Below are positions 15,546 to 62,841 of a DNA stretch of 64,000 bases, in pieces. The stretch covers positions 124,001-188,000 of the forward strand of contig NTMA01000081.1 of the NCBI GenBank assembly GCA_002917075.1. The letters are read 5' to 3'. Within the stretch, counting starts at the first letter, position 1. The number at the start of each line of letters is the position of its first letter. The translations under genes and the position numbers were made by a program. This DNA is from Hawksworthiomyces lignivorus (Eukaryota; Ascomycota; Sordariomycetes; Ophiostomatales; Ophiostomataceae). The notes below the pieces were generated by a model. It did not search any database. It had not been told where the DNA came from and was given only the letters and a program-made list of their open reading frames with translations.

Positions 15546-18500
15546 ATGGTCCTTGTCGATGGTCACGAGTACCTCACCGAGGAAGAGAAGCGTCTGAAGC
15601 AGGACCGCAAGCGGGAGAAATACTGGAAGAAATGGGGCTCATATGTGTCTGAGCGGCAATGGGCAACGGGTGAGTGGGAGAGCGCAGAGAATTGGGTGCA
15701 ATTGTGTTAGAGGAGAAGGCGGCGTCTGCTAACAAAAAAAATCAGTGCGCGAGGACTATAGCCACGATGGCGATGCATGGAGTCGTAGGTTTCTCTTTCT
15801 TCTCTCTCTCTCTCTCTCTTTTTTTCTTTTTTTAAGGCTTCATATCTCTTGCCGTTGGCAGCTTCCTTCGACTAACCAACTAACTCTCTAGACTTCCCCC
15901 ACGATCATGCGCGGTCACGGGCTTACCGCTGGGGCGAGGATGGTATTGCTGGCGTGTGCGACACCCACGGCCTCGAGAACATTGCCTTTGCGTTCTGGAA
16001 TGAGAAAGAGTATGTGCTGCTGGGTTTCCATCGTTCGCGGTCTGGCATCCGACTAACAAAGCTAGCCCGTTTCTCAAGGAGCGCCTGTTCGGCCTGTCTA
16101 ATCCGCAGGGCAACCACGGCGAGAGTATCAAGGAAGCTCACTTTCACCTCGACAACACTCCTGTGAGTTTCATGCTTTTTCGATGTGGTACCCAGCTCTG
16201 GTTTCATTGTACTAACACACTATCTCGCAGACTGTATGTTGACCTCCCGCTCAAGACCAGCTTGCGCATCCAGACTAACCCGCCACAGCACTCCTACATG
16301 AAATATCTCTACAAGTACCCTCAGAAGCCCTTCCCCTATGAGGATCTCCTCAAAGAAAACGCCCGCCGCGGCAAGCAGGACAAGGAATACCAGATTCTGG
16401 ACACGGGCGTCTTCGACGAGGACCGGTACTGGGACATCTATATCGAGACCGCCAAGGAGGACGACGACCCGGAGGCCATCGTCTTCCGCGTGACCGCATG
16501 GAACCGCGGCCCCGACCCGGCTCCGCTGCACATCATCCCCCACCTCTGGTTCCGGAACACCTGGTCCTGGGGCCTCGAGAGCCCCGACCGGAAGCCGGGC
16601 ATCGAGTGCTACGAGGAGAACATGGTCAAGTCGACGCACCCGGATCTCGGCGACCGCTACCTGCTGCTGGCTCCCTCGCCCAGCGCGGCGGCCGGCGGCG
16701 AGGACGTGCAGCCCGAGCTGCTGTTCACCGACAACGACACCAACTTTGCCGCGCTGTACGACGGCAAGAACACGACGCCGTACGTCAAGGACGCCTTCCA
16801 CCACTACATTGTCGACGGCAAGAAGGAGGCCGTCAACCCGGCCAAGACGGGCACCAAGTGCGCCGCGTGGTTCTCCTTCAACGAGGCCGGCGGCGTGCCG
16901 CCCGGCGAGTGCGCCGTAGTGCGGTTCCGCTTCTCCAAGCGCAACGAGACCTTCCTGGACGAGGAGGAGGCCGACGACATCATCGACAGCAAGCGCGAGG
17001 AGGCCGACGACTTCTACTACCGCATCAGCCCGCTGCCCATGACGGACGACCTGCGCAACATCCAGCGCCAGGCCTTTGCCGGCATGATGTGGTGCAAGCA
17101 GCACTACCTGTTCATCTGGGACCAGTGGGCCAACGGCGACCCGGCGCAGCCGCCGCCGCCGCCCGAGCGCAAGGCCATCCGCAACGCGCCGTGGAAGCAC
17201 ATGCACTGCGACGACGTGCTGTCGATGCCCGACTCGTGGGAGTACCCCTTCTTCGCCGCCTGGGACTCGAGCTTCCACTGCATCCCGCTGGCCATGATCG
17301 ACCCGGAGTTCGCCAAGAAGCAGCTCGACCTGTACACGCGCGAGTGGTACTGCCACCCCAACGGCCAGCTGCCCGCCTACGAGTGGAACTTTAGCGACGT
17401 CAACCCGCCCGTGCACGCCTGGGCCACCTTCCGCGTCTTCAAGATCGAGCGCAAGCTGTACGGCCGCCAGGACCTCGACTTTCTCGAGCGCGTCTTCCAG
17501 AAGCTGCTGCTCAACTTCACCTGGTGGGTCAACCGCAAGGACCTAGACGGCAAGAACGTCTTTGCCGGCGGCTTCCTGGGCCTGGACAACATCGGCCTGT
17601 TCAACCGCTCCGAGCCGCTGCCCACGGGCGGCACGCTCGAGCAGGCCGACAGCACGGGCTGGATGGCCTTCTACTGCCTGTCCATGCTCAACATCTGCCT
17701 GGAGCTGGCCAAGTACCGCCGCACGTACGAGGACATGGCGACCAAGTTCTTCGAGCACTTCTTGCTCATCAGCGACGCCATGACCTTCCGCATGGGCCAG
17801 AAGGAGGAGGTGTCGCTGTGGAACGACGAGGACGGCTTCTACTACGACGCCATCTCGTGGGGCGGGCCCTGGATCCAGCAGCTGCCGGTGCGCTCGCTGG
17901 TCGGGCTGATCCCCATGTACGCGACGCTGACGCTGGAGCCGGAGCTGATCAACAGCCTGCCGACGTTCAAGCGGCGCGTCGAGTGGTTCATCAAGAACCG
18001 CAACGACGTGGCCGAGCGCAACATGGCGTCCATCGCCAAGCGCGGCAAGGGCAACCGCATCCTGCTGTCCATCGTCAGCAAGGAGCGGCTGCAGCGGCTG
18101 CTGCAGCGCATGCTGGACGAGGACGAGTTCTTCAGCCCGCACGGCGTGCGGTCGCTGTCCAAGTACCACAAGGACCACCCCTACTCCATGGACGTCAACG
18201 GCCAGCGCTTCGCCGTCAGCTACGTGCCGGGCGACTCGGACAGCGGCCTGTTCGGCGGCAACAGCAACTGGCGGGGCCCCGTGTGGATCTGCGTCAACTA
18301 CCTGCTGGTCGAGTCGCTGCAGCGCTTCTACATGTTCTTTGGCGACTCGCTGCGCGTCGAGTGCCCCGTCGGCTCCGGCGACTTTATGCACCTGGGCCAC
18401 GTGTCCGAGGAGCTGCAGCACCGCCTGCAGCACCTCTACGCCCGCCGCGACGACGGCCGCCGCAGCATCAACGGCGGCAGCGACCTGCTCGACTTTGACC

Positions 18501-19179
18501 CCCTCTGGAAGGACAACCTGTGGTTCTACGAGTTCTTTGACGGCGACTCGGGCCGCGGCCTCGGCGCCACCCACCAGTGCGGCTGGACCGGCCTGATCGC
18601 CCGCATGATCCACGACACGGGGTGAGTGTCGCTTTTCTTCTTTCCCTCTTCTCCCCTTGCTAACACTTCCTTCCCAGCGTCACCTGCCGCCTGCCCCAGA
18701 CGCCGACCACGCCGCGCGCCGGCATGAACCACTACTTTGACGACATCCTGCACCGGCACGACAAGGGCGCGCAGACGCCGCGCTCGGCCGGGTCGTCGTC
18801 CGGCCCGCGGCTGCTGCGCCGCTCGTCGACAGCGCGGTCGCTCGGCGCCCGCAGCGACTTTGTCGTGAGCACCACGGACGCCGACACCGAGGACGGCACC
18901 GGCTACGGCGACGAAGACGGGGTGGACGACGAGGACGGCTCCGTGCTGCACATGCGCGGCCGCGGCAGCCGCCGGGCCTCGCGCGCTGGGTCCGTCTTTG
19001 TCAACGACCCGGAGCGCCTGCGCCAGCGCGCCGAGGCCGACCTGCACCTGCACCGCTACATCGAGGACCAGCTGGAGCGCATCAAGACGGCGCAGAGCAG
19101 CAACGGCTACAGCGACGGCGACGAGTTCGAGGCGCACGCGGACCGGGAGCTGGAGAGGCAGCCCAGGGCAGAACAATGA
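15546..19179 (+). CDS. GH63-like glycosidase (MGH1/YgjK-like, cytosolic type)
   Basis: Seven exons: 15546-15669, 15746-15784, 15892-16009, 16066-16162, 16231-16233 (ACT only), 16289-18621 and 18678-19179; 1,071 aa. There is no signal peptide. N-terminal hallmarks are [33 protein letters not shown] and [11 protein letters not shown]. The (alpha/alpha)6 barrel contains [18 protein letters not shown] at about residues 440-455, where GH63 enzymes place the general acid, and [18 protein letters not shown] near the C-terminus. Relatives hydrolyse alpha-glucosides or mannosylglycerate; the substrate cannot be read here. The last exon encodes a Ser/Asp/Glu-rich tail of about 165 residues after the conserved domain. 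Splice signals are canonical throughout; an in-frame CTAG acceptor is forced at 16065 because the earlier AG gives a stop. Confidence 0.9.
16231..16233 (+). other. 3-nt microexon (ACT, Thr)
   Basis: Bracketed by intron 16163-16230 (GTGAGT...TACTAAC...GCAG) and intron 16234-16288 (GTATGT...ACTAACC...CACAG). Each has its own canonical donor, branch site and acceptor. Inclusion yields the conserved P-T-H-S-Y-M-K; skipping would delete only the Thr. Confidence 0.75.
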
Positions 19180-24219: not shown

Positions 24220-27200
24220 TTACTGTTCAGCCCACGACAATGGCGTTCCGCCACGCTCATCTTTCGTTTCGATTTCAGCACCAGACTCGAGTAACCGTTG
24301 TATCACAGCCTCATACTTGTTTATCGCAGCATCGTCCTCGTCCATCATAACGTCGTCCTTACACATCATAGCATACGACAACGGTGTTCGGCCATAATTA
24401 TCCTTAGCTTCGACGTCGGCGCCCGCGTCAAGCAACTGTTGCACCACAGTCTCGCACCCTCCCTCCACGGCCCAGAACAATGGCGTCCGGCCAAACTCAT
24501 CCTTCGTTTCGACTTCAGCACCAGCCTCGAGTAACCGTTGTATCACAGCCTTGTACTTGTTTATCGAAAAATCGCCCCCGTTCATCTCAACTCCGTACCT
24601 GACCATCATAGCCCACGACAACGGTGTTCGGCCTTCATTGTCTTTCGTTTCGACGTCGGCGCCTGCGTCGAGTAACCGTTGCACCACGGCCTCGTGCCCT
24701 TCTTCGTACCCTCCTTCGTGCCCTCCTTCCGCGGCTAAAGACAACGGTGTTCGGCCATAATTATCCTTCGTTTCGACGTCGGCGCCCGTCTCGAGCAATT
24801 GTCGCACCACGACATCATGCCCTTCCACCGCGGCTAACGACAACGGTGTTCGATCTTCATTATCTTTCGTTTCGACGTCGGCGCCCGTCTCGAGCAATTG
24901 TCGCACCACGACATCATGCCCTTCCACCGCGGCTAACGACAACGGTGTTCGATCTTCATTATCTTTCGTTTCGACGTCGGCGCCCGTCTCGAGCAATTGT
25001 CGCACCACGACATCATGCCCTTCCACCGCGGCTAACGACAACGGTGTTCGATCTTCATTATCTTTCGTTTCGACATCAGCGCCTGCCTCGAGCAACCGTT
25101 GCACCACGACCTCGTACCCTCCCTCCGCGGCAAACGACAATGACGTTCGGTCGTAATCATCCTCCGCTTCGACGTCGGCACCCGCCTCGAGCAACCGTTG
25201 AACCATGGCATCGTAGCCTCCCTCCGCGGCTAACAACAGTGGCGTTAGACCGAATTTATTTTCCTTCGTTTTGACGTCGGCGCCTGCATCGACCAACCGT
25301 TGCACCACGGCTTCGTGTCCTTGTTCCGTGGCCCACCACAACGGTGTTCTTGCGTTACCATCTTTTGCTTCGACGTTGGCGCCCTCTTCAAGTAATTGTT
25401 GCACTATTACCTCGTGGCCAAAATACGACGTTATTGTAAGGTTTGTAAAGTTGCTGGGAACGGGACTATGTATACTGTTCCAGTAAACTTCGGACCATGC
25501 CGAATAGCTCTTAGATTTCGGATCACAGATTCCCAAAACGACATTGAATAAGTCAACATTACGCCTGACACAGGCCTTTTGGACGTGAGCGCCCCAATTT
25601 GTGGCTGTATAATCTAAGAATGCGTAGCTGTCCGTTAAACGATCGGTTCTCCCGATGTCGAAATTGAAAAAATTAAGATATGCTACACAGACCTCTGCAA
25701 GAACGGTGTGCGCATCACAGGTACTAATAGAGCGATGCCAGCGTAGCTCTGACAGAGTAGGTGGAGGCAGTGACAGTGACATATCCGCGAGGAGAAATTC
25801 TCGAGCAGTTTGATGAAGAAAGTAAACCTTGCCATGGTATAATGACACAAACAGTCCACACCAAGATCGGAGGCTTAATCTGAAGTTTTCCTCTTGTTCA
25901 AGGTCGAGGTCGTCCATAGACTGTGATGTGATGTCGACATTGACAGCAAAATTCATCTCAGCTAGCGTCAGTGGCCGACTTGCCGCTAATATTATACTCA
26001 AGACTTTTCGAACCATGCCGTCGTCTTTGGACCTGTCAAGTATTCTCTCGTATGCCTGGTTTACACTTTTTGGGAGTGATGTAATGGGTGACTCAATGCC
26101 CCTCTTGGTCTTCTTGAAGTTTTGCGATTGTAAGTAATCGAACACAAGGTACACCCAAAGATATGTGCGGTGGGCAATTTTTGTTAGTTGTTGATAAAGA
26201 TGGTCTGCGATATCTTTTGATAGTCGTTTTTGCTTCGCCAGATGTTTAACACGTTCGCCAATCGTACAATTCACTTCTTGGCTAATAGTTTCCGACTCGT
26301 CTTCTCCTGGAATTCGAATAAAAGGGAAAACGTCAGCTAGTTTATAGAACTCAGATGTAACTTGTTCGTAGGGTCGGCAAGTCAGGAGAAACTTAACCTT
26401 GCCCAGCCGCCATGACGTTTGGAAAAGACGCTCTAACGTTCGGATTAAGTTCCGAAGGCCCGGTTCGTTGCATTCGTCTAATGCATCCAAGACGATGATC
26501 ACGGGGCCTGTTAGTGGATCTTTCCAAGCATTTTCCAGAATGTCCCATAACGTTGCCGTAAGATGAATTAGACTTGACCCATTTTTAGAATATTCTCGCA
26601 TGGCATAGCGAATCAAAGAAGGATGGCGGGCAAACAACTGGTGCAGCAGTGCACAAAGGGCTTGATTGATCGTGTTTTGGTCTTGGTCTTTGAAGAAAAA
26701 GTAACATATTGTTGTTGATCGTGGCAGCACATCATCGATTAAGTACTTGACCAAGACGGATTTTCCGCATCCAGGGTCCGCCGAGACGAGCAGTGGCCCT
26801 GACTCCATTTCCAGCCACTTTTGGAAGTGCTCGTGTCTTAGGAACCACTGGCATGTGCCGGGTACTCGATCATCCACCCGATCCTTATACCACTCGTAAG
26901 ATGCGCCGTTCTCGCCTGTTATAAGACGAAATAATTGGTGACATTGTTCTTCTTTATCAGACAGCTTCTGCTTGGCCACGTCCTTTAAGGCCTGGAGTTG
27001 TTCTTTCGCCAAGTCTCGGTGCTCTCCTATAACTTGTAGATGCTCTTTGTCCAAGGATAACAACTGGTGTGGAATATTCTCTAACTTTGTGCTTAACCAA
27101 TGTCTGAGATCGTCTATGGAATAATATTTGTCGGCGGCAGTCTCAGGTGTCTTCGGAGGATCTTGGAAGTGACCGCCGATGCTTATCAAGTCTCTGAAGC

Positions 27201-28065
27201 ATCTCTCTCCGCTTACCACCACATCCTGTACCACTTTAGCTTCAGACACTTTGGCTGCTGGTAATCCATCTTTACTGTCTCCTACTCTCTCTTCCTTACA
27301 TGTGGACTCTAATTTATCCTTCATGTACACCACACAAAGTCCATAGCAAAGAGATAAACCGTGGGACAAATCTATCACCATCTCATCCTCGCGAGTAAGA
27401 GGTCCAGCGTGAAGCTTGTATAACAAGTCATGCGCAAACTTGTTGTACATGGACTCTGCGAGGGTCGTGAGTTGTATTTCAAACATCACATTGCAATACT
27501 GAGAAGTGTCTGCACAGTCTTCGCTTTGCAGGCTTACACGACAATTGTGAGTCTGGTAGGCACCAAACCACGTCTTCCAAAGCTTTCCCACTTTGCGGTG
27601 AGCAGAAAAAACGCTTGGTTCCTTCTCTTGATGAAATCTCTTCAGAATGAAGTCAAGGGCGTTCTCGAAATCGCATGGATAGTCCAGCACAATTCTAAGC
27701 CCAACGAGGTCGTGTATTTCGTTGAATACGGCATCGAAACTCTGAAATTGTTTTTGTCCTTGCTTCTCGCGTCGGCCTAGTGAATTTTCTATAGATTCCG
27801 CCGTCTTAGTTCTGCCTTCGACGCAGCAGCTAATCGCCCTCTGCCTGAGACTGGATTGACATAACTTCATCAGACTTTCCCTCATCTTATCGTATTCAAC
27901 CGACAGCTGGGGCCAGATTTTGTTGAAGAAAGCGCGCTTGAGACTCTCGGGGTCTTCGCTCTGGCTAGCAGTCTCGCGAATCATGCGATCGATTTTTGTC
28001 CGTAGTGGTATATTCTCAATATCACCCTCTCCTGGTTGGACGCGAGCAGGCGACTGGGAACCCAT
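24220..28065 (-). CDS. NLR-like STAND protein: RelA/SpoT-like domain - NACHT - ankyrin repeats
   Basis: Single-exon frame of 1,281 aa. Residues about 55-245 resemble a RelA/SpoT nucleotidyltransferase. Visible hallmarks are R85-T-K (RTKTAESIENSL), EIHDLVGLRIVLDYP (D119, R124), AYQTHNCRVSL (Y170, H173), FEIQLTTL (E196, Q198) and HDLLYK (H212). These match the positions needed for (p)ppGpp-type pyrophosphate transfer. A helical linker leads to a NACHT NTPase with Walker A SADPGCGKS (428-436) and Walker B IIVLDALDE (523-531). A winged-helix/HQTAREFL region follows, then about ten ankyrin repeats from residue 870 to the end. Fungal NLRs act in non-self recognition, with the repeats sensing and the N-terminus executing; here the executor would be a nucleotide-modifying enzyme, which is inference. 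The gene is less GC-rich than the housekeeping genes. The stop falls inside an ankyrin repeat. Confidence 0.88.
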   Translation of the reverse strand: MGSQSPARVQPGEGDIENIPLRTKIDRMIRETASQSEDPESLKRAFFNKIWPQLSVEYDKMRESLMKLCQSSLRQRAISCCVEGRTKTAESIENSLGRREKQGQKQFQSFDAVFNEIHDLVGLRIVLDYPCDFENALDFILKRFHQEKEPSVFSAHRKVGKLWKTWFGAYQTHNCRVSLQSEDCADTSQYCNVMFEIQLTTLAESMYNKFAHDLLYKLHAGPLTREDEMVIDLSHGLSLCYGLCVVYMKDKLESTCKEERVGDSKDGLPAAKVSEAKVVQDVVVSGERCFRDLISIGGHFQDPPKTPETAADKYYSIDDLRHWLSTKLENIPHQLLSLDKEHLQVIGEHRDLAKEQLQALKDVAKQKLSDKEEQCHQLFRLITGENGASYEWYKDRVDDRVPGTCQWFLRHEHFQKWLEMESGPLLVSADPGCGKSVLVKYLIDDVLPRSTTICYFFFKDQDQNTINQALCALLHQLFARHPSLIRYAMREYSKNGSSLIHLTATLWDILENAWKDPLTGPVIIVLDALDECNEPGLRNLIRTLERLFQTSWRLGKVKFLLTCRPYEQVTSEFYKLADVFPFIRIPGEDESETISQEVNCTIGERVKHLAKQKRLSKDIADHLYQQLTKIAHRTYLWVYLVFDYLQSQNFKKTKRGIESPITSLPKSVNQAYERILDRSKDDGMVRKVLSIILAASRPLTLAEMNFAVNVDITSQSMDDLDLEQEENFRLSLRSWCGLFVSLYHGKVYFLHQTAREFLLADMSLSLPPPTLSELRWHRSISTCDAHTVLAEVCVAYLNFFNFDIGRTDRLTDSYAFLDYTATNWGAHVQKACVRRNVDLFNVVLGICDPKSKSYSAWSEVYWNSIHSPVPSNFTNLTITSYFGHEVIVQQLLEEGANVEAKDGNARTPLWWATEQGHEAVVQRLVDAGADVKTKENKFGLTPLLLAAEGGYDAMVQRLLEAGADVEAEDDYDRTSLSFAAEGGYEVVVQRLLEAGADVETKDNEDRTPLSLAAVEGHDVVVRQLLETGADVETKDNEDRTPLSLAAVEGHDVVVRQLLETGADVETKDNEDRTPLSLAAVEGHDVVVRQLLETGADVETKDNYGRTPLSLAAEGGHEGGYEEGHEAVVQRLLDAGADVETKDNEGRTPLSWAMMVRYGVEMNGGDFSINKYKAVIQRLLEAGAEVETKDEFGRTPLFWAVEGGCETVVQQLLDAGADVEAKDNYGRTPLSYAMMCKDDVMMDEDDAAINKYEAVIQRLLESGAEIETKDERGGTPLSWAEQ
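24775..25071 (-). repeat. Three identical 99-bp ankyrin-coding units
   Basis: Units begin at 24775, 24874 and 24973; by eye they are identical over all 99 bases. Each encodes one 33-residue ankyrin repeat (ETKDNEDRTPLSLAAVEGHD core). Flanking repeats in the same array differ at many bases, so these copies are recent duplications or were homogenised. Confidence 0.9.
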
Positions 28066-29015
28066 CGCGAAGGTATATAGCTGATGCCGTGTTCTACCAA
28101 AAAAGGCTATTTAAGTTACTAAACCACGACGGTGAGGAAGCTCAAATAGCTGCTCGTACAGATCGACTAAATGACAGGAAGTCAGACAGCATAGCAGAGC
28201 AGAGGCTAGGCACAGAAGGAACGCCTTCCTTGTTTCACAGGTCATGCCCTCGAAGGATAAGGATCGTGAAAATTGGGCATCAAAAACCAGGCTGAACTCG
28301 AGGCGGAGAGCGGGGTCGCTCCATGTTGGTATTTCTGTGCCACATTCCCTATCCCGCACGGGGTACCGATGTCATGATGTCTTATTAGTGGCTATGCAAT
28401 GTCGACCGCTTCTGAAGGCCAACTCATGTTCTGGTGGGGGAATGATGGAGGAATCAAACAATCTGACCCAATCGCCTTGACCTGTCTAATAAGGCCTGAC
28501 CACACTAGAAATATTAAAAAAGGAGACAGAAGATTCCTTACGCAAGGCTGTGTAATCCCCTCGTACACATAAAGATAGCTATTGAAGAGTTTCAAGGTAG
28601 CGGACCCACCATTTTCCCAGCGGCAGAAAGGTGCAACACCTCGCTGGCTCCACGAATAATTTGTTAGTTGATGCCAGTTTTCTGAGCTTGCACGCGCTGT
28701 ATCCGTGGAGGCAAGGCATCTTGCATGGGGTTGTCTTGTAAGTTCGCATGCGAACCAAACCCCCACACCCCTCCCCCCCCCCAAAAATAGAATAAGAAGA
28801 AAAGAAGAAATCAGAATCAGAATCTGCCTTGTTGAGGCTTGATGCTTAGGTAGGGCATCAATAACGAAACATGAATTGTTCTTGACAGAGCCGCATCTTA
28901 AAGTTGAGGGGTATTTCCCATATAAACGCCAACTTTGTAGCAAAGCGTAGGCCGATTTTCGATATTTTATACACTCTACTTTATCTCGAAGATACTTGGA
29001 GGTGCTCCTAAGGTT
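28066..29015. other. Divergent intergenic region between NLR and CorA-like genes
   Basis: 0.95 kb separates the two start codons. It contains a C-rich run (28762-28785) followed by A-rich sequence. No credible ORF. It must hold both promoters if both genes are transcribed. Confidence 0.55.
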
Positions 29016-30539
29016 ATGGAGTTTGCAAATCAATCGTATAAAGACTTTATCGAGTTTCGAAGACAAACGAACCCTTGCATAGCTGGTTTAGTCGACCATT
29101 TGAAATGTGAAACTAGCAATGCAAGCACTGTGATTATGCTAGATTACTGTCATGGTAACGGGTCGCCACAGAATCCTGTTACATTAACTGGAGCTGACCT
29201 AGCTCAGTTGCTTAATCCTCCAACAGATTGTGGGCGAGTTATATTCGTGGAGAATATCACACCTCACTTGATCAATCTTCTCGGCGAGAAACTTGATGTG
29301 GACCCTATCTTCTTTGCGGACCATGTTGTCACTAACTTTCACGACATCGAAAATGCACCATCTCCCCCGTCTCTTGCGTTGTTTCCATCTCAGATCTCCG
29401 AACGGGGCTATCTCCACATCCACTACCAGCAGGTAATGGATTTGGGAAGCGCAGACGCGTTCAAGGGCTCTTCCTATGCTCTTAGAACAGATTCGAACGT
29501 TCCCCGCAATGCTAGACGCTTACCTCCTCTGTCGGGGCGACAGCTTGCTCTCGTTCGAGTGTGCTGCTCTATTCTAGTAAGAAAATTCCAAAGTTTTTGG
29601 ATCTGTATGTCCCCTCAAGATCCGCAACACATGTCGACTACGTCTCTTACATCAACAGGTCTCGTCCTCGTAGACCCGCCCATCCAGAGGCTTGTTGGCA
29701 TGCGAAAGTCAGGAGTCCCGGAGTTGTACTCAGCCAAACCCTTGCAAGGAGGGTTCGAAGATTTCACGCAACCGACGTCTTTCGTGTCCTTTACGTCTGG
29801 CGAAGAAGATCGCTCCTGGGATAAAAGCTCAATGCTCAGCAGCTTGCTCAATTACTTTCGCAACCCACCTCCTGGATTTACTACTACCCAACCAAGCATC
29901 TTAAGTCTTGGCTACTACCCAATGCGAATTATGCTAGCCGAGTGGATCCTTTACACGCACGTCATGAGTCGCTACGTTAAATACTACGAATACTCTTTGC
30001 ACGACATCCAGAGTCGACTACATGACAGCGATATTGTGGACCTCCAACGCTGGCGGCGTCGGACGGCACAGAGCCAACACAAGCTGAGACTTCTTACCGA
30101 GTTCATTGGCTACTGGCTCGAGCAAGAGGCAAACAAGCAACTGTGGAGTATAATGCTGAAGGACATAAGCTACATAGTCTCACATCTAGAATATTATGGC
30201 CACTCGCTCGAGCAGATGATCCCTGTGGCCACATCGATGGTGCAGCTACTCGACTCACAGCGTTCGGTGCACGAGGCTGCCAATGTCAGCCAACTAACTT
30301 ACATCGCGCTAGTCTTCGTGCCGTTGTCTTGGGTTGCCACCCTATTCAGCATGTCCGACAATTATTCTCCGGGGCACGAGCAGTTTTGGGTTTACGTCGT
30401 CACCGCACTACCAGTGCTGCTTCTGGTCTTGCTGCTGTCGGTCGCCCGATGGGATCAGCTAAGGGGAAGGTGGGAAATAATTTGGGAATCATTGAACCTG
30501 CAAGCGGAGAGGAAGAAGGTAGAGGATGGGTTGCCATAA
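29016..30539 (+). CDS. CorA-like two-transmembrane protein
   Basis: Intronless frame of 507 aa. The N-terminal 290 residues have the layout of fungal CorA-like accessory proteins (YALRTDSNVPRNARRLPPLS, STGLVLVDPPIQ). A long helical region (about 320-425, EANKQLWSIMLKDISYIVSH and VHEAANVSQLTYIALVFVPL) leads to two C-terminal hydrophobic segments, about 427-446 and 457-479. In true CorA Mg2+ channels a Gly-Met-Asn motif ends TM1; here the position reads FSMSDN, so Mg2+ transport is doubtful. Such proteins are numerous and strain-variable in Pezizomycotina. It is divergent from the RelA/SpoT NLR and next to a HET relic, which suggests a membrane-acting partner; that is inference only. Confidence 0.75.
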   Translation: MEFANQSYKDFIEFRRQTNPCIAGLVDHLKCETSNASTVIMLDYCHGNGSPQNPVTLTGADLAQLLNPPTDCGRVIFVENITPHLINLLGEKLDVDPIFFADHVVTNFHDIENAPSPPSLALFPSQISERGYLHIHYQQVMDLGSADAFKGSSYALRTDSNVPRNARRLPPLSGRQLALVRVCCSILVRKFQSFWICMSPQDPQHMSTTSLTSTGLVLVDPPIQRLVGMRKSGVPELYSAKPLQGGFEDFTQPTSFVSFTSGEEDRSWDKSSMLSSLLNYFRNPPPGFTTTQPSILSLGYYPMRIMLAEWILYTHVMSRYVKYYEYSLHDIQSRLHDSDIVDLQRWRRRTAQSQHKLRLLTEFIGYWLEQEANKQLWSIMLKDISYIVSHLEYYGHSLEQMIPVATSMVQLLDSQRSVHEAANVSQLTYIALVFVPLSWVATLFSMSDNYSPGHEQFWVYVVTALPVLLLVLLLSVARWDQLRGRWEIIWESLNLQAERKKVEDGLP

Positions 30540-56800: not shown

Positions 56801-57886
56801 AGCCTTGGTAGTCTGCGACCGATTCTTCACTTCAGCTGCGTCAGAAGACTAGCCAGCATCCGTAGCTCAGAAATGTAAACTACAGAGCTCCGCAATCCCT
56901 GCCAGCTTCTGCTCCCGGCCATATTTTGCTGGTCTAGGCATAGCCAGCATTCCAGTCCACAACTCCCCCCTGGCTTATTAATTCAGCCAGGTTCTTAATT
57001 ACAGGTCTCTTTCCTAGACGGCCATGATTTGTACGGATCAGGTCGCACATGGTCCGTCCCAAGCTGCGCCGCCAAAACAATATGTCCGCGTGGAACATAA
57101 AGTCGAATTCACAAGCCTTCCCCTCGCCGTACAACATTTAGCAATGTACGGCGCAAAAGAAATTCAGATGTGTCGCCCATGATAGGGAATATTGGTGCTA
57201 AAACATAGCCTCACTTTCCAAACTATCAGATCGGCGGGGGGGGCCTCCTGACTAGAGCGCCCATATCTGACTTCTCTTTGTATCTCATGCCATCTGTTGC
57301 TGAGCAGCGGCATGCGACGCGGACCGGAAGTGGGTCGCCTTGGACAGCCGAGACATGTGCCGCACGCCGCCGCCGTCTTCGGAATTGCGGAGGATCGAAG
57401 ACTCTAAGCGACGAAGCAGAGAGGCAGCCAGCAGACGCGAAAAAAATAGTGTTAATTCAGGACAAAGAAAATCAGAATGCCGCATCAAGACGGGCAACCA
57501 TGTGGACTTGGAAGGATGGTGGACTATACCCATCAAAGCCGCCTAGTCAAAGATAGGCGGACTCGCTAGACGAGCTGTCGCTGACTGATTGGGCATTGTT
57601 GGGTTCAGACAGCTGGTCGGTGGTACCGACTCTCTGGTTAAGGGATAGCAATTCTGCATCAGGACTCATCCGAGACATAGTAACAAAGTCGGGAAGCAAA
57701 GAGCCTCATAAGCGAGAAAGCTAAGAGCTTCTCAAGCAATATCCCGCGTACTGGTCTCTCCCCAAGAGAATCTCAGGCCATAGCGGGCCGATAAATCGAT
57801 CTTGACTAGATCGCAACATGACGTAGATATCCACGATCTCTGCCAGTCGATAGTGACAGCACAAAAGTCTTGGCCAGCTTGGCATC
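53820..57886. other. 4-kb gene-poor region
   Basis: The largest gap in the window. It includes a poly-T run (54341-54353), a GA-rich run (54568-54598), a (CATA)n microsatellite at about 55164-55181 and a TACGGAGTA motif at 54694-54702. Several ORFs of 60-170 codons exist but show no recognised motif. The minus-strand frame 56934-57137 (LFWRRSLGRTMCDLIRTNHG) is the most protein-like and could be a relic. Confidence 0.5.
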
Positions 57887-57898
57887 TTGCACCCAAAA

Positions 57899-60172
57899 AT
57901 GGAACCGTACACGGCGCCAATCCCATTTGACGAGTTGCCTGTCGTCCACGTGGAGACGGCCGTGACCCAAGATGACCACCAGGACCTGTTCGACGACCGC
58001 TCGGATCCCGTCGCTCTGGCGGCGATCGGCCAGTGCGTGGGCCTGCTCAAGCTCCACGATGATGCGGTCGTGGACTTCTACGGGAAGATGCTCCGCAACT
58101 CTACGCAGGCAGAGTTTGGGGAAACGGGCATGCAGCTGGTCGCCGGCATGTCCAAGACTACCGGCGCGCTGATGCGTACGCTCGACGGCGTGCCGGCGGT
58201 GGCAGCGGTATCCTTCCTCCAGGAGGCTCTCACAGAAGACGCATTCCTCAAGTTCCTCGCCAATCTCATGGCGAGGACGCCGCCGAGCCACCTGCAGCAA
58301 CCGGGGGGATGGCAGCAGATCCTCGACACCGTCAAAGCTCTCAACTCCCAGACATCCTGCGTGTCATGGGCCGGGGAGCTGCACGAAGCGCAGGAGCATG
58401 TCGGCGAGGGCCCGCCCGCCGGATACTTGTTCAGGGAATTCTTCTGGGCATTTGCAAGAGTCGACGTATTCTCGCTGGTGGCCTTCTACCAGGCACTGTG
58501 CACGGTGTCCCACAACCCGGAAACGTATTGCTGCACTCTGACGACGCCGTACAGCCTTGTGGTCCCGTACGTCTTGGCTCACCACCTCTGCAGCCTCCGC
58601 GTCTGCGTCGTGGTCCAGGGAGAGACGGTGCCGAGCGATCAGGTAGTCGGAGGGTGGCAGGTGCGGCTGGAGCGGGTCCTGAATCCGGACGACTTTTTTG
58701 TTCCGACGACCGTGAAGCTCGGACGGTCGGCGGCGCACTTGCAAGACTTGTTTGTCACGAGAAACCCCGGCGAAGGTCGGTTCGAGCGGACGAATGTGCT
58801 CGCAATCGGCCAAAAATCCACGCTGCGGCAGAGTCTCGGGTATGCAGAGAGCGAGGAGCTCGCGGCGATGGCGATCGCGGTGGCCATTTCTGCCATGGCA
58901 AAGTGGAAGCGAAAACCAGCAGATGCGCCGCCGCCGCCGCCAGCGACGCTGCAGGACCAAGGATCGTCGGATGCCGGCAGCTTCCGCGCAACGCGCGACG
59001 GACCGCCGGTCGAGACGCGCCTCACTCTCGCGCACGTCGAGATTTGGTGGGGCCTCCGAGGCGAGCTCTCCGAGAGGCTGTGGCAGCTCGCGGAGCAGCA
59101 GCTTGAGCGCCTCCCTGACAACGCGACGTATCGCGAGCTGCCCTTCGGCGGCGCCGTCGCGCAGAACATTGCAGAATTCAACGGCGCTGCCGAAGGGCCT
59201 CTCCACAGACACCAGAGCGACCGCCTGACCCTGGGACGGTCCGACTTCGAGAGGCTGCTCGCGATCCTGGTTCCCCAGCTGGTCCTGATCGCGTTTGCGG
59301 ATCCCCAGTCGCTGGCAGACGGCCGGGTTCACATCCGGGGACCGAGCACAATGCGGCCGAGCCCCATCGGCAGGGCCTTTAACGGAACAAGAGAGCCGGC
59401 AAAGCTGTCCGTAAATGATGTCTTGGAGTCCTGGATTTACTGGATCAGCGGCAGTCTCCAGTCTGAGCCTCTCGGCCTGCACGGCGGACCCGTGCTTCTC
59501 TCTGCGGACGGCTACGTGGTATACCGAAGCGTGCTCAACGGGATCGATCCCAGCCCCGGCTGGTTCGAGAGGGTCGTCGTCGAGCCGGGACACATCGAGT
59601 TCCGCAGCCGGCGCTGGGACCAGATCAGCAACGTGCGCATACGGACACACTCGTCTTTGCCCATACCATTGTATCAGGGGCTTCTGGCTGGCCCAGCTTC
59701 GCTGCCGTCGAGAGATCTCACCGGCATGGACTCGTGCGTCTGGCGCGTGCAATCCTTCGGAGACAGAGACTATCTGTCGATTTCGATGCTATTCCGGCTA
59801 GGCCACAACATACTAATACCAACGTCGCCGCTGGCCATTGTGGAAGAGTACTGGGGGAGGTGGCGCGGTGACCAGTCGCCGGTGCGCTGCACGCACGACT
59901 ATGACCGTCCCACCCAGCTGGCCGACGGAGAAGTCGTCTACAGCCAGTCTGCCGGGAGCGCCTATGATCCCGACAGAGACGGGCTGCTCCCAGACGCGCA
60001 TCCCAGTCAGACTTGTCTGCGGCTCTATCATTCTCACGGCAACCCGCAGGGCCAGATCGGCTGCATGCTTTCCGAAGACAAGACGGCCCCGGGCCTGATC
60101 CGCGGAGATGCTTGTCTGAGGTGCTGCTTAAACTTCGCTTGGGAGCACGATCTGCAATTCGTGGTGGACTAG
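57899..60172 (+). CDS. Intronless orphan protein, 757 aa
   Basis: The start is set at ATG 57899 (MEPYTAPIPFDELPVVHVE); the frame extends four codons further only from a TTG. Composition and codon use are those of a real gene and no stop or frame break occurs. No catalytic or binding motif was recognised. Features are an N-terminal helical half (VGLLKLHDDAVVDFYGKML, GYLFREFFWAFARVDVFSLV), a Pro run (PPPPP) near residue 345, a middle segment LAHVEIWWGLRGELSERLWQ, and a Cys/His-containing C-terminus (RLYHSHGNPQGQIGCMLS, DACLRCCLNFAWEH). No signal peptide or clear TM helix. Probably cytosolic; function unknown and likely lineage-restricted. Confidence 0.72.
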   Translation: MEPYTAPIPFDELPVVHVETAVTQDDHQDLFDDRSDPVALAAIGQCVGLLKLHDDAVVDFYGKMLRNSTQAEFGETGMQLVAGMSKTTGALMRTLDGVPAVAAVSFLQEALTEDAFLKFLANLMARTPPSHLQQPGGWQQILDTVKALNSQTSCVSWAGELHEAQEHVGEGPPAGYLFREFFWAFARVDVFSLVAFYQALCTVSHNPETYCCTLTTPYSLVVPYVLAHHLCSLRVCVVVQGETVPSDQVVGGWQVRLERVLNPDDFFVPTTVKLGRSAAHLQDLFVTRNPGEGRFERTNVLAIGQKSTLRQSLGYAESEELAAMAIAVAISAMAKWKRKPADAPPPPPATLQDQGSSDAGSFRATRDGPPVETRLTLAHVEIWWGLRGELSERLWQLAEQQLERLPDNATYRELPFGGAVAQNIAEFNGAAEGPLHRHQSDRLTLGRSDFERLLAILVPQLVLIAFADPQSLADGRVHIRGPSTMRPSPIGRAFNGTREPAKLSVNDVLESWIYWISGSLQSEPLGLHGGPVLLSADGYVVYRSVLNGIDPSPGWFERVVVEPGHIEFRSRRWDQISNVRIRTHSSLPIPLYQGLLAGPASLPSRDLTGMDSCVWRVQSFGDRDYLSISMLFRLGHNILIPTSPLAIVEEYWGRWRGDQSPVRCTHDYDRPTQLADGEVVYSQSAGSAYDPDRDGLLPDAHPSQTCLRLYHSHGNPQGQIGCMLSEDKTAPGLIRGDACLRCCLNFAWEHDLQFVVD

Positions 60173-60496: not shown

Positions 60497-62164
60497 TCAG
60501 CGGATCTCCACGCCCAGCCGCTCGACGAGGGCGTCGGTGACGGCGGCGTGCAGGCGGTTGGTCTCGGCGTTGGTGAGGGTGCGCTCGAGGCTGCGGTAGT
60601 TGATGCGGTAGCAGCGGCTCTGGCGGCCGGTGGTGGGGTGGGCAAAGGCGTCGGTGAGCTGGACGTCCTCGACGACGTCGCCGGCGACGCTGCGGATGAC
60701 CTCCATGACGTCGTTGTTGTGGAAGACGGGGCGGCCGCCGGCGGCGGCAGCACCGGCAGAGCCCTCGTCGGCGGGGAGGCCGGCGCGGCCGCCGAGCCAG
60801 AAGGAGACGTCCTTGTAGCAGGGGGGGTAGCGGGAGAAGGGGACGAAGCGGCGCAGGCGGGCGAGGTCGTCGGAGACGCCGCGGAACTGGCCGAGGAAGC
60901 GCTCGTCGGAGGACCAGAAGAGGCGGATGTCGGGGATCTGGAAGAGCAGCATGGCGATGCGGTCGAGGCCGATGCCAAAGGCCCAGGCCAGCTGGCCCGG
61001 CACGCCGGCGTCGCGCAGGATGCGCTGCTGCGTCACGCCGCAGCCCAGCACCTCGAGCCAGTCGCCCTGGTAGTACACCTCGAGCTCCCACGAGGGGCTG
61101 GTGAAGGGGAAAAACGCCTCGACCCAGCGCATGCGCAGGGGCTCGTCGTTTTCCGGCGCGCGTCCCTCGGCCGCGGCCGCGGCAGCGGCCGCCTGCTTCG
61201 CCCGCGAGAACACCTCGACCACCATCAGCTCCAGCGACCGCTTGAGGTGGGCGCCCAGCGCGGCCACCTCGGCGGCCGAGTGGTGGTCGGCCTGGCGCGG
61301 GTTGCGCGCGTCGTGGAACGGCGGGTTGGGGTCCTCGACGGCGACGCCGTGCTCGGGCAGCCGCGCCAGGTCGGCCAGGATGGCGGCGGCCAGGTCGCCG
61401 TTCTCGTCGGCGTCCGCGGCGCGGTCCCACACGCGGGCGCCCTCCATCTGGTGGAAGACCGGGTAGTGGGTGCGGTCGACCTCGTCGCGGCGGTAGACGT
61501 CGGCGCTCAGCAGGAAGCCGTCGCTGGCGTTGGCGCGGAACGTCTCCAGCTCGTGGGCGCTCGTGTGGGTGCGCAGCAGCGTGTCCTGGTTGATGTAGTA
61601 GGTGTCGGAGCGGTTGCGGCCCGGGTGGTCCGGCGGAAAGCCCAGCGAGTCAAAGTTCTGGAACGTCGACACCACCGGGTGCAGCGAGTTGTGGTAGCGG
61701 AACGTCGGCGCCGGGAACCGCGACTCGATGATCTGCCGCGTGATGGCCACCGGGTGGTCCTTCTGCAGGTGCAGCCGGCGGCTGGCGGCGGCCAGGACGT
61801 TGGCGGGCGCATTGAACCAGGCGTCCGTGGCGTAGGTCCGCCCGTCGACCTGGACCTTGTCCTGTGCCGATGGAGAAGTGGGGGATGCGGAGGAAGATGT
61901 GGAGGAGGAGGAGGAGGAGGAGGAGGAGGAAGAGGAAGAGGAAGAGGAAGAGGAAGAGGAAGAGGATGTGGAGGCGGAGGTGGTAGCGTTAGTGGAGGAG
62001 CTAGCTGCTGTTGAGTATCGTGACAGGAGGGTCCTGGCAGTCTTTGCCGGCCGGGTGGTGGGACGCCGCAGACACCGGGACGACAAGGCCGGCATTGGCG
62101 GCATGCAGAGCTCTCCTGCCGCCAGGCCCACGGGCCGAGGCAATCGTCTAAGCACGGCTGCCAT
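60497..62164 (-). CDS. msf1: Phenylalanyl-tRNA synthetase, mitochondrial (monomeric, class II)
   Basis: Intronless, 555 aa from ATG 62164 (MAAVLRRLPRPVGLAAG). The frame extends upstream to 62365, but the Arg-rich presequence begins best here. After the mitochondrial targeting region there is a Ser homopolymer tract, then the class II catalytic core: YHNSLHPVVSTFQNFDSLGF, YYINQDTLLRTHTSAHE, RRDEVDRTHYPVFHQMEG (motif 2) and AWAFGIGLDRIAMLLFQIPD (motif 3). A C-terminal ferredoxin-fold anticodon-binding domain (VAGDVVEDVQLTDAF, YRINYRSLERTLTNAE) ends the protein. It charges mitochondrial tRNA-Phe. An Ala-rich insertion lies at about residues 320-335. Length is somewhat above yeast Msf1 because of the Ser tract and insertions. 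Confidence 0.94.
   Translation of the reverse strand: MAAVLRRLPRPVGLAAGELCMPPMPALSSRCLRRPTTRPAKTARTLLSRYSTAASSSTNATTSASTSSSSSSSSSSSSSSSSSSSSSSTSSSASPTSPSAQDKVQVDGRTYATDAWFNAPANVLAAASRRLHLQKDHPVAITRQIIESRFPAPTFRYHNSLHPVVSTFQNFDSLGFPPDHPGRNRSDTYYINQDTLLRTHTSAHELETFRANASDGFLLSADVYRRDEVDRTHYPVFHQMEGARVWDRAADADENGDLAAAILADLARLPEHGVAVEDPNPPFHDARNPRQADHHSAAEVAALGAHLKRSLELMVVEVFSRAKQAAAAAAAAEGRAPENDEPLRMRWVEAFFPFTSPSWELEVYYQGDWLEVLGCGVTQQRILRDAGVPGQLAWAFGIGLDRIAMLLFQIPDIRLFWSSDERFLGQFRGVSDDLARLRRFVPFSRYPPCYKDVSFWLGGRAGLPADEGSAGAAAAGGRPVFHNNDVMEVIRSVAGDVVEDVQLTDAFAHPTTGRQSRCYRINYRSLERTLTNAETNRLHAAVTDALVERLGVEIR
61898..61969 (-). repeat. GAG/GAA triplet tract encoding poly-Ser
   Basis: A run of GAG then GAAGAG triplets on the plus strand encodes about 22 consecutive Ser in the synthetase, between presequence and catalytic core. 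Probably a hypervariable microsatellite. Confidence 0.85.
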
Positions 62165-62841
62165 CAGAGAAGCGAAATTCAGCAGCCAATGGGAATTGCT
62201 GCAGCGAAAACGAGGAACAAAGAAGAGATGCCCGTCGGAGGAGACGACCCAGCAAGCTTGCCGTAAGCCATGACCTGAGCTTTCACGAGGGAAAATTGGA
62301 TGCGGGATCAACCGCGGCCCCTCAGCCAATAACAGCCGTTCCCAACTCCCACCGGCTGAGAGCATAGTGCATCATACAGTAGAATACCGTATCGTACAGT
62401 ATAAGCCCTGCGGGAAGGGGACTGCAAATAAGCAATAATGGAATAATGGAAACAGAATGGCTGAAACTCCGTTAGCGGAGATTTCGGGGAGAGATGCACC
62501 ATCCCGAAGTCAAAAGAAAAGAGACGGACAAAAAAGCCGGCAGCCAGTCAACGTAGCATGCAGCCTACACGTCCTACGACGTTCCCACACGCATGTACTA
62601 CACGTACTACATGTAGTTACTCCGTACTACAGTACACGTCCTTCACGTAGGTACGCACAGGCTGCGGTATGCAAAGGCGCAATGCGATTGCCCTGAGATG
62701 CCATCCCACCGCTACGGCTTAGGGAGCGTTCCAGCAGCCTTGTTCGCTGCTGATTCGCGGACATCCCGACTATACAGCCGTCCTGCGCCGAAAGGAAGAG
62801 AATTATGCGCTATGACGCTATCTGCCTATCTCTCTCTCTCT

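Follow-up and report, generated by a model that had tools for sequence, protein, structure and literature searches.

RelA_SpoT is one of the 12 N-terminal classes described for fungal NOD-like receptors (NLRs), where it carries the label of ppGpp synthesis and where the manipulation of bacteria has been offered as one explanation for its presence (PMC4986451). A review terms the class 'a minor yet intriguing clade' (PMC10197012), the family is among the search profiles of a further study (PMC9815663), and 14 (82%) of the RelA_SpoT NLRs of the Sordariales are T-NACHT receptors (PMC12258605). In Podospora anserina, nwd5 (NWD5 / Pa_5_1230) encodes a RelA_SpoT-NACHT-WD protein that is up 3.62-fold in incompatibility (PMC3689799), and the single REL-SPO NLR of this species rises in vegetative incompatibility but in neither of the two bacterial columns (PMC4835503); here and below, the cited papers are drawn on as excerpts. 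The 64,000-nucleotide stretch of Hawksworthiomyces lignivorus DNA analyzed here (contig NTMA01000081.1, positions 124,001 to 188,000; hereafter the window) holds a gene with the same N-terminal class, NACHT core, and C-terminal repeats as the published receptors (PMC4986451, PMC3689799, PMC12258605), though its repeats are of the ankyrin type and those of nwd5 are WD repeats. The architecture is thus already in print, and the guess in the original prediction, which was made from the letters of the window, that surveys list RelA/SpoT among fungal NLR N-termini was right, the class being listed in 2013 and 2014. The present analysis adds a check of the structure, corrects one residue, and yields a signature of two residues by which the fungal rows differ from all sampled non-fungal rows.

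The gene is a single open frame (window 28065..24220, minus strand) of 1281 amino acids (aa) with zero inner stops and no need for an intron, and translation and Pfam agree with the coordinates, strand, and frame and with the one-frame fusion of RelA/SpoT, NACHT, and ankyrin parts that had been predicted. The RelA_SpoT family (PF04607) matches residues 84-218 with 34.6 bits (cut-off, 27; E 2.5e-8), NPHP3_N matches residues 403-564 (E 1.2e-38), and ankyrin families match with E down to 7e-74; the PF05729 NACHT model reaches 20.5 bits on the protein, under its cut-off of 26.7. Within the nucleoside triphosphatase (NTPase), DPGCGKS (from residue 430) and DALDE (from residue 527) are what we take to be Walker A and Walker B. 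The order of an N-terminal domain, a NACHT-type NTPase (by NPHP3_N), and C-terminal repeats is the layout of fungal NLRs, which belong to the STAND class (signal transduction ATPases with numerous domains). The call of the N-terminal domain is beyond chance because of 12 fungal relatives, a match in fold, and another gene in the genome with this architecture.

A structure model covering residues 1-300 gives residues ~41-257 the predicted fold of small alarmone synthetases (SASs), in agreement with the RelA-synthetase fold that had been claimed for residues 55-245, and the best solved-structure matches, both by sequence and by fold, are the GTP pyrophosphokinases RelP/RelQ. Residues of FaRel2 (PMC11782079) and RelP (PMC5794853) were carried onto the window protein by motif and spacing, with R64, K66, S70, K74, and R77 of FaRel2 corresponding to R85, K87, S91, S95, and R98, and D90, R95, Y128, E145, and Q147 corresponding to D119, R124, Y170, E196, and Q198. 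At motif positions the core thus has R85, K87, S91, R98, D119, R124, Y170, E196, Q198, and H212. The acidic pair D119/E196 maps to the catalytic positions, as had been proposed, and is kept in all 29 fungal rows of the alignment described below, as are R85, R124, K87, S91, and R98, while some bacterial rows depart at the S91 and R98 positions. D119, R124, Y170, E196, and Q198 therefore stand as synthetase-motif residues, and H173 does not; it sits at Tyr+3, a variable position (R in 23 and H in 15 of 74 aligned rows, with other residues or a gap in the remainder), and the motif histidine position, Tyr+4, is N174. Read through these alignments and the predicted fold, the domain is shown to keep the catalytic acids and most of the ATP-donor site, and ATP is probably the donor, since the adenine-stacking arginine pair, the glutamine, and the magnesium aspartate are all kept.

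Serine and asparagine (S95 and N174) stand where a lysine and the G-loop histidine are usual. The lysine, which holds the ATP phosphates (K74 in FaRel2, PMC11782079; Lys88 in RelP, PMC5794853), is the fourth member of the FaRel2 set R-K-S-K-R, of which R85, K87, S91, and R98 are present and the fourth is S95; the G-loop tyrosine is likewise present as Y170, with N174 replacing the histidine at +4. By motif spacing, the two positions correspond to Lys251 and His312 of RelSeq, listed among its pppGpp-binding residues (PMC13299517). In a 79-row alignment, position 95 is S in 22, T in six, and Y in one of the 29 fungal rows and K in 50/50 others, and position 174 is N in 29/29 fungal rows and H in 50/50 others. 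The lysine and histidine are both kept in 126/126 non-fungal rows and both absent from 29/29 fungal rows, counts that hold for a sample picked via similarity searches. The non-fungal set joins the best 80 of 363 confirmed stretches from an alignment of three plasmid proteins with the best 120 of 183 matches from a mixed-alignment profile search; it is biased toward kin of its starting proteins, and its label was assigned mostly by kinship. In the wider set of 74 rows, position 95 of the 72 fungal-like ones is S, T, a gap, or, once each, A or Y, and position 174 is N or a gap; the two non-fungal ones keep K and H. The signature S/T95 plus N174 is not mentioned in the excerpted accounts of fungal RelA_SpoT NLRs. 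With two conserved residues replaced in the fungal rows, the substrate is not transferable from the toxic SASs (toxSASs) or from RelA, and because the fungal rows are without the G-loop histidine and the phosphate-helix lysine, their acceptor pocket is likely to differ from the one in (p)ppGpp synthetases.

With residues 40-280 as the query, 12 fungal proteins were recovered (E 1.5e-81 to 2.2e-49; 44-60% identity over the aligned part), all 12 of which carry a RelA_SpoT domain, and the suggested check for fungal RelA_SpoT-NACHT architectures found such relatives among them. Judged by the families listed, we take four of the 12 to bear ankyrin repeats, five WD40 or other beta-propeller repeats, and two TPR repeats (one with NB-ARC), with the last presumably a NACHT-type protein with no repeats among those families. 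Three further relatives from the profile search (P0076, P0077, and P0078) are listed with a NACHT-type domain but with no repeat family. Source names of the relatives include Stachybotrys, Chaetomium, Podospora, Clonostachys, Fusarium, Ilyonectria, and Clarireedia, all of them ascomycetes. A further 60 shorter proteins (124-376 aa) were collected, of which P0072 and P0073 are not fungal-like; many of them, with tails judged by eye, end in the linker near residue 333. A free-standing fungal RelA_SpoT family is not claimed, and the shorter proteins may each be the first exon or a fragment of an NLR gene.

A quick maximum-likelihood tree was built from 79 hand-chosen rows, with the diagnostic columns 95 and 174 set for exclusion. 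The 29 fungal rows (the window gene, its paralog, nine of the 12 relatives, 15 of the 60 shorter proteins, and three new profile-search proteins) are set apart from the others by a branch with an approximate likelihood-ratio (SH-aLRT) support of 99; the 50 non-fungal rows include 29 of the 80 bacterial loci, CapRel, Escherichia coli RelA, and one RelP/RelQ-like protein. This is in line with one acquisition of the fungal domain, though with long rows in the outgroup and no settled sister group; the placement of CapRel, E. coli RelA, P0072, P0073, and the synthetase of locus L007, all of them long rows, is unsure. A profile of the fungal rows has its best matches, at up to 105.5 bits, in bacterial proteins of ~380-560 aa with the G-loop GYWATH or similar, which form a widespread group, followed by bacterial rows of ~360-370 aa (up to 89.5 bits; FYRATH or similar), the L007 synthetase (34.5 bits), E. 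coli RelA (15.8 bits), and CapRel (6.5 bits). These two uncharacterized bacterial RelA_SpoT groups are the best-scoring non-fungal relatives, keep the lysine and histidine in every row examined, and were seen with no NACHT partner; together with RelP/RelQ they outscore CapRel by sequence. For CapRel/FaRel2 as the nearest kin, support comes from the shared fold only and not from sequence. Plasmid records gave five matches (best, 29.6% identity, E 6e-11) and phage records five weak ones (E 0.03 to 1).

RelA_SpoT matches occur at two places in the 43.7 Mb genome: in the window gene and at the end of contig C107, where a paralog with the same domains (64% identity over 1011 alignment columns) has a similar start (MDSQSP against MGSQSP). 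From residue ~333 onward, the window gene is also similar to a third receptor, on contig C163 (950 columns at 54.8% identity, across the NACHT and ankyrin parts), which begins instead with NACHT_N (PF17100, E 1.1e-59); the NACHT of this third receptor is identical to that of the window gene at 109/164 positions (66%), compared to 115/164 for the C107 paralog. Related receptor bodies therefore bear different N-terminal domains in one genome, and this swap supports a modular, effector-like position of the synthetase domain; a table for Gaeumannomyces pairs HeLo-like and RelA_SpoT NLRs likewise (PMC4986451). When the window gene is compared with the C107 paralog, the nonsynonymous (dN) and synonymous (dS) divergences of the synthetase core are 0.18 and 0.94; the ratio of 0.19 shows constraint on the core, though not on catalysis as such. 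The linker and the post-NACHT part give ratios of 0.23 and 0.20, with dS near 1 and rough outside the NACHT segment, where dS is saturated and no ratio is given.

On balance, it is probable that the gene encodes a fungal STAND receptor in which the SAS-fold domain, mounted on a NACHT-ankyrin body, is activated as an ATP pyrophosphokinase to stop growth or kill the cell, as suggested by sequence, the structure model, and analogy. The ankyrin array would sense a non-self or modified-self ligand, whose binding would open the NACHT switch so that the NACHT modules oligomerize and the receptors assemble; the N-terminal domain, released or clustered, would then become an active pyrophosphokinase drawing pyrophosphate from ATP, and the product would stop growth or kill the cell, limiting an intruder or an incompatible fusion. 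More tentatively, re-tuning of the active site (Lys to Ser/Thr and His to Asn) may have followed a single acquisition, so that the activated receptor modifies not GTP but another acceptor, for example the 3' ends of tRNA, adenine nucleotides, or some new substrate. Several points weigh against a working pyrophosphokinase receptor. With the lysine and the G-loop histidine replaced, activity could be weak, altered, or lost, and among the 74 rows the D119 position is Asn in one and a gap in four, the R98 position is His and Glu in single rows, the Y170 position is Phe in three, and the E196/Q198 stretch is absent from one gene model. NACHT oligomerization and the immune role are argued by analogy, and no enzymatic or genetic test of the class was recognized among the open-access papers listed by the searches, as judged by title and abstract opening.

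For the product or acceptor, tRNA, (p)ppGpp, and (p)ppApp have similar odds. The small positive acceptor patch of FaRel2, tied to tRNA use (PMC11782079), makes tRNA a fair guess, and pyrophosphorylation of the tRNA CCA end, as by the tRNA pyrophosphokinases CapRel and FaRel2, is possible if doubtful, as the fungal profile barely scores CapRel, and losing the lysine and the histidine does not point to tRNA use, given that CapRel modifies tRNA with both retained. A plain (p)ppGpp synthetase, whose ppGpp would arrest growth in the fungal cytosol, accords with RelP/RelQ as the best structural matches, with the published label (PMC4986451), and with the growth inhibition of engineered yeast that makes ppGpp, in which human Mesh1 restores growth (PMC5527313), yet the absence from every fungal row of the lysine and histidine that correspond to the pppGpp-binding Lys251 and His312 of RelSeq makes it rather unlikely. 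A Mesh1-type hydrolase (PF13328) was not found in the H. lignivorus genome, in a search limited by introns. Use of adenine nucleotides, with (p)ppApp made and ATP drained as by Apk1/Tas1 and FaRel, is unlikely in view of different loop lengths (N174 sits 22 before E196), and neither compared chain matched in a profile search of PDB sequences.

A dead enzyme retained as a scaffold or decoy would fit the two fixed substitutions of the fungal rows, but has only a small chance given that both catalytic acids and the arginines and ATP-site residues named above persist in all 29 rows, that Asn at the D119 position is confined to the single row noted, and that the core is constrained. NLRs act inside the cell, which makes it highly improbable that the enzyme acts on bacterial partners by manipulating their ppGpp signaling. 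That explanation was offered as a possible one in PMC4986451, and the incompatibility response of the P. anserina REL-SPO NLR, with no rise in two bacterial columns (PMC4835503), also speaks against it.

Compared to RelP/RelQ (SAS1/SAS2), the window domain differs by the replaced phosphate-helix lysine and G-loop histidine and by its fusion to a receptor, and unlike CapRel, which keeps both residues and is controlled by a pseudo-zinc-finger domain, it would be controlled by a NACHT switch. If the pyrophosphokinase reading is true, the receptor would be a eukaryotic counterpart of toxSAS abortive defense built into an NLR, at a point where bacterial and eukaryotic immunity meet in enzymatic NLR effectors, and pyrophosphate transfer, familiar mainly from bacterial stress responses and defense against phages, would serve fungi as an immune output. 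A precise, testable substrate prediction follows from the K-to-S/T and H-to-N changes, and nwd5 is a member of the class in a genetic model.

Fungal NLRs have been reported with highly conserved repeats (PMC4986451), and high repeat conservation is also found in the window gene, where 32 matched residues are identical across three successive ankyrin units. The units sit in a 99-base tandem array, with tandem arrays showing 80-83% matches, and identical neighboring units are a sign of recent repeat turnover.

In 11 of the 80 bacterial loci examined (L023, L024, L025, L033-L038, L040, and L041), a FYRATH-type RelA_SpoT gene adjoins genes like those of the BREX (bacteriophage exclusion) phage-defense system, lying between BrxC-like and PglX-like or between PglX-like and PglZ-like frames; the BREX family models were checked on the L023 and L036 proteins only. 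A whole-word literature search, which would miss 'RelA_SpoT', found no paper pairing BREX or PglX with RelA. In 14 of the 80 loci (L008-L016 and L018-L022), bacterial genes of this kind precede a large conserved protein (754-990 aa where single-frame; split in L013), annotated as sigma-factor-like helix-turn-helix in a Rhizobium plasmid record (L004).

Table 1. Features of the receptor gene, related receptors in the genome, and neighboring frames (window positions unless a contig is named).
Feature	Position	Strand	Basis
Whole gene	24220..28065	-	translation, one open frame
RelA_SpoT-type synthetase core, residues 41-257	27295..27945	-	Pfam, alignment, predicted fold
Pfam RelA_SpoT match, residues 84-218	27412-27816	-	PF04607
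Linker, residues 258-402	26860..27294	-	model reaches only residue 300, low confidence there
NACHT-type NTPase, residues 403-564	26374..26859	-	Pfam NPHP3_N
DUF7069, residues 594-658	26092..26286	-	Pfam
Winged-helix domain GPIID_WHD, residues 685-761	25783..26013	-	Pfam
Ankyrin repeat array, residues ~904-1281	24223..25356	-	Pfam, repeat comparison
Three successive 33-aa ankyrin units, from residues 1004, 1037, 1070	24760..25056	-	matched 32-aa stretches identical
Paralog L003, same domains	C107 5821-9069	+	frame still open at contig end
Third receptor L099, N-terminus NACHT_N	C163 952-4536	-	Pfam, alignment
CorA-like gene	28941-30539	+	PF01544, E 1.7e-8
Glycosyl hydrolase 63-like frame	16004-18625	+	
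771-aa open frame	57857-60172	+	
Phenylalanyl-tRNA synthetase frame	60497-62371	-	

A sigma-70 promoter scan was uninformative for a fungal gene. The 771-aa frame has no Pfam match at E 0.001, and the CorA-like gene is placed divergently to the receptor gene, ~0.9 kb from its start. The glycosyl hydrolase 63-like and phenylalanyl-tRNA synthetase frames are neighbors of a housekeeping type.

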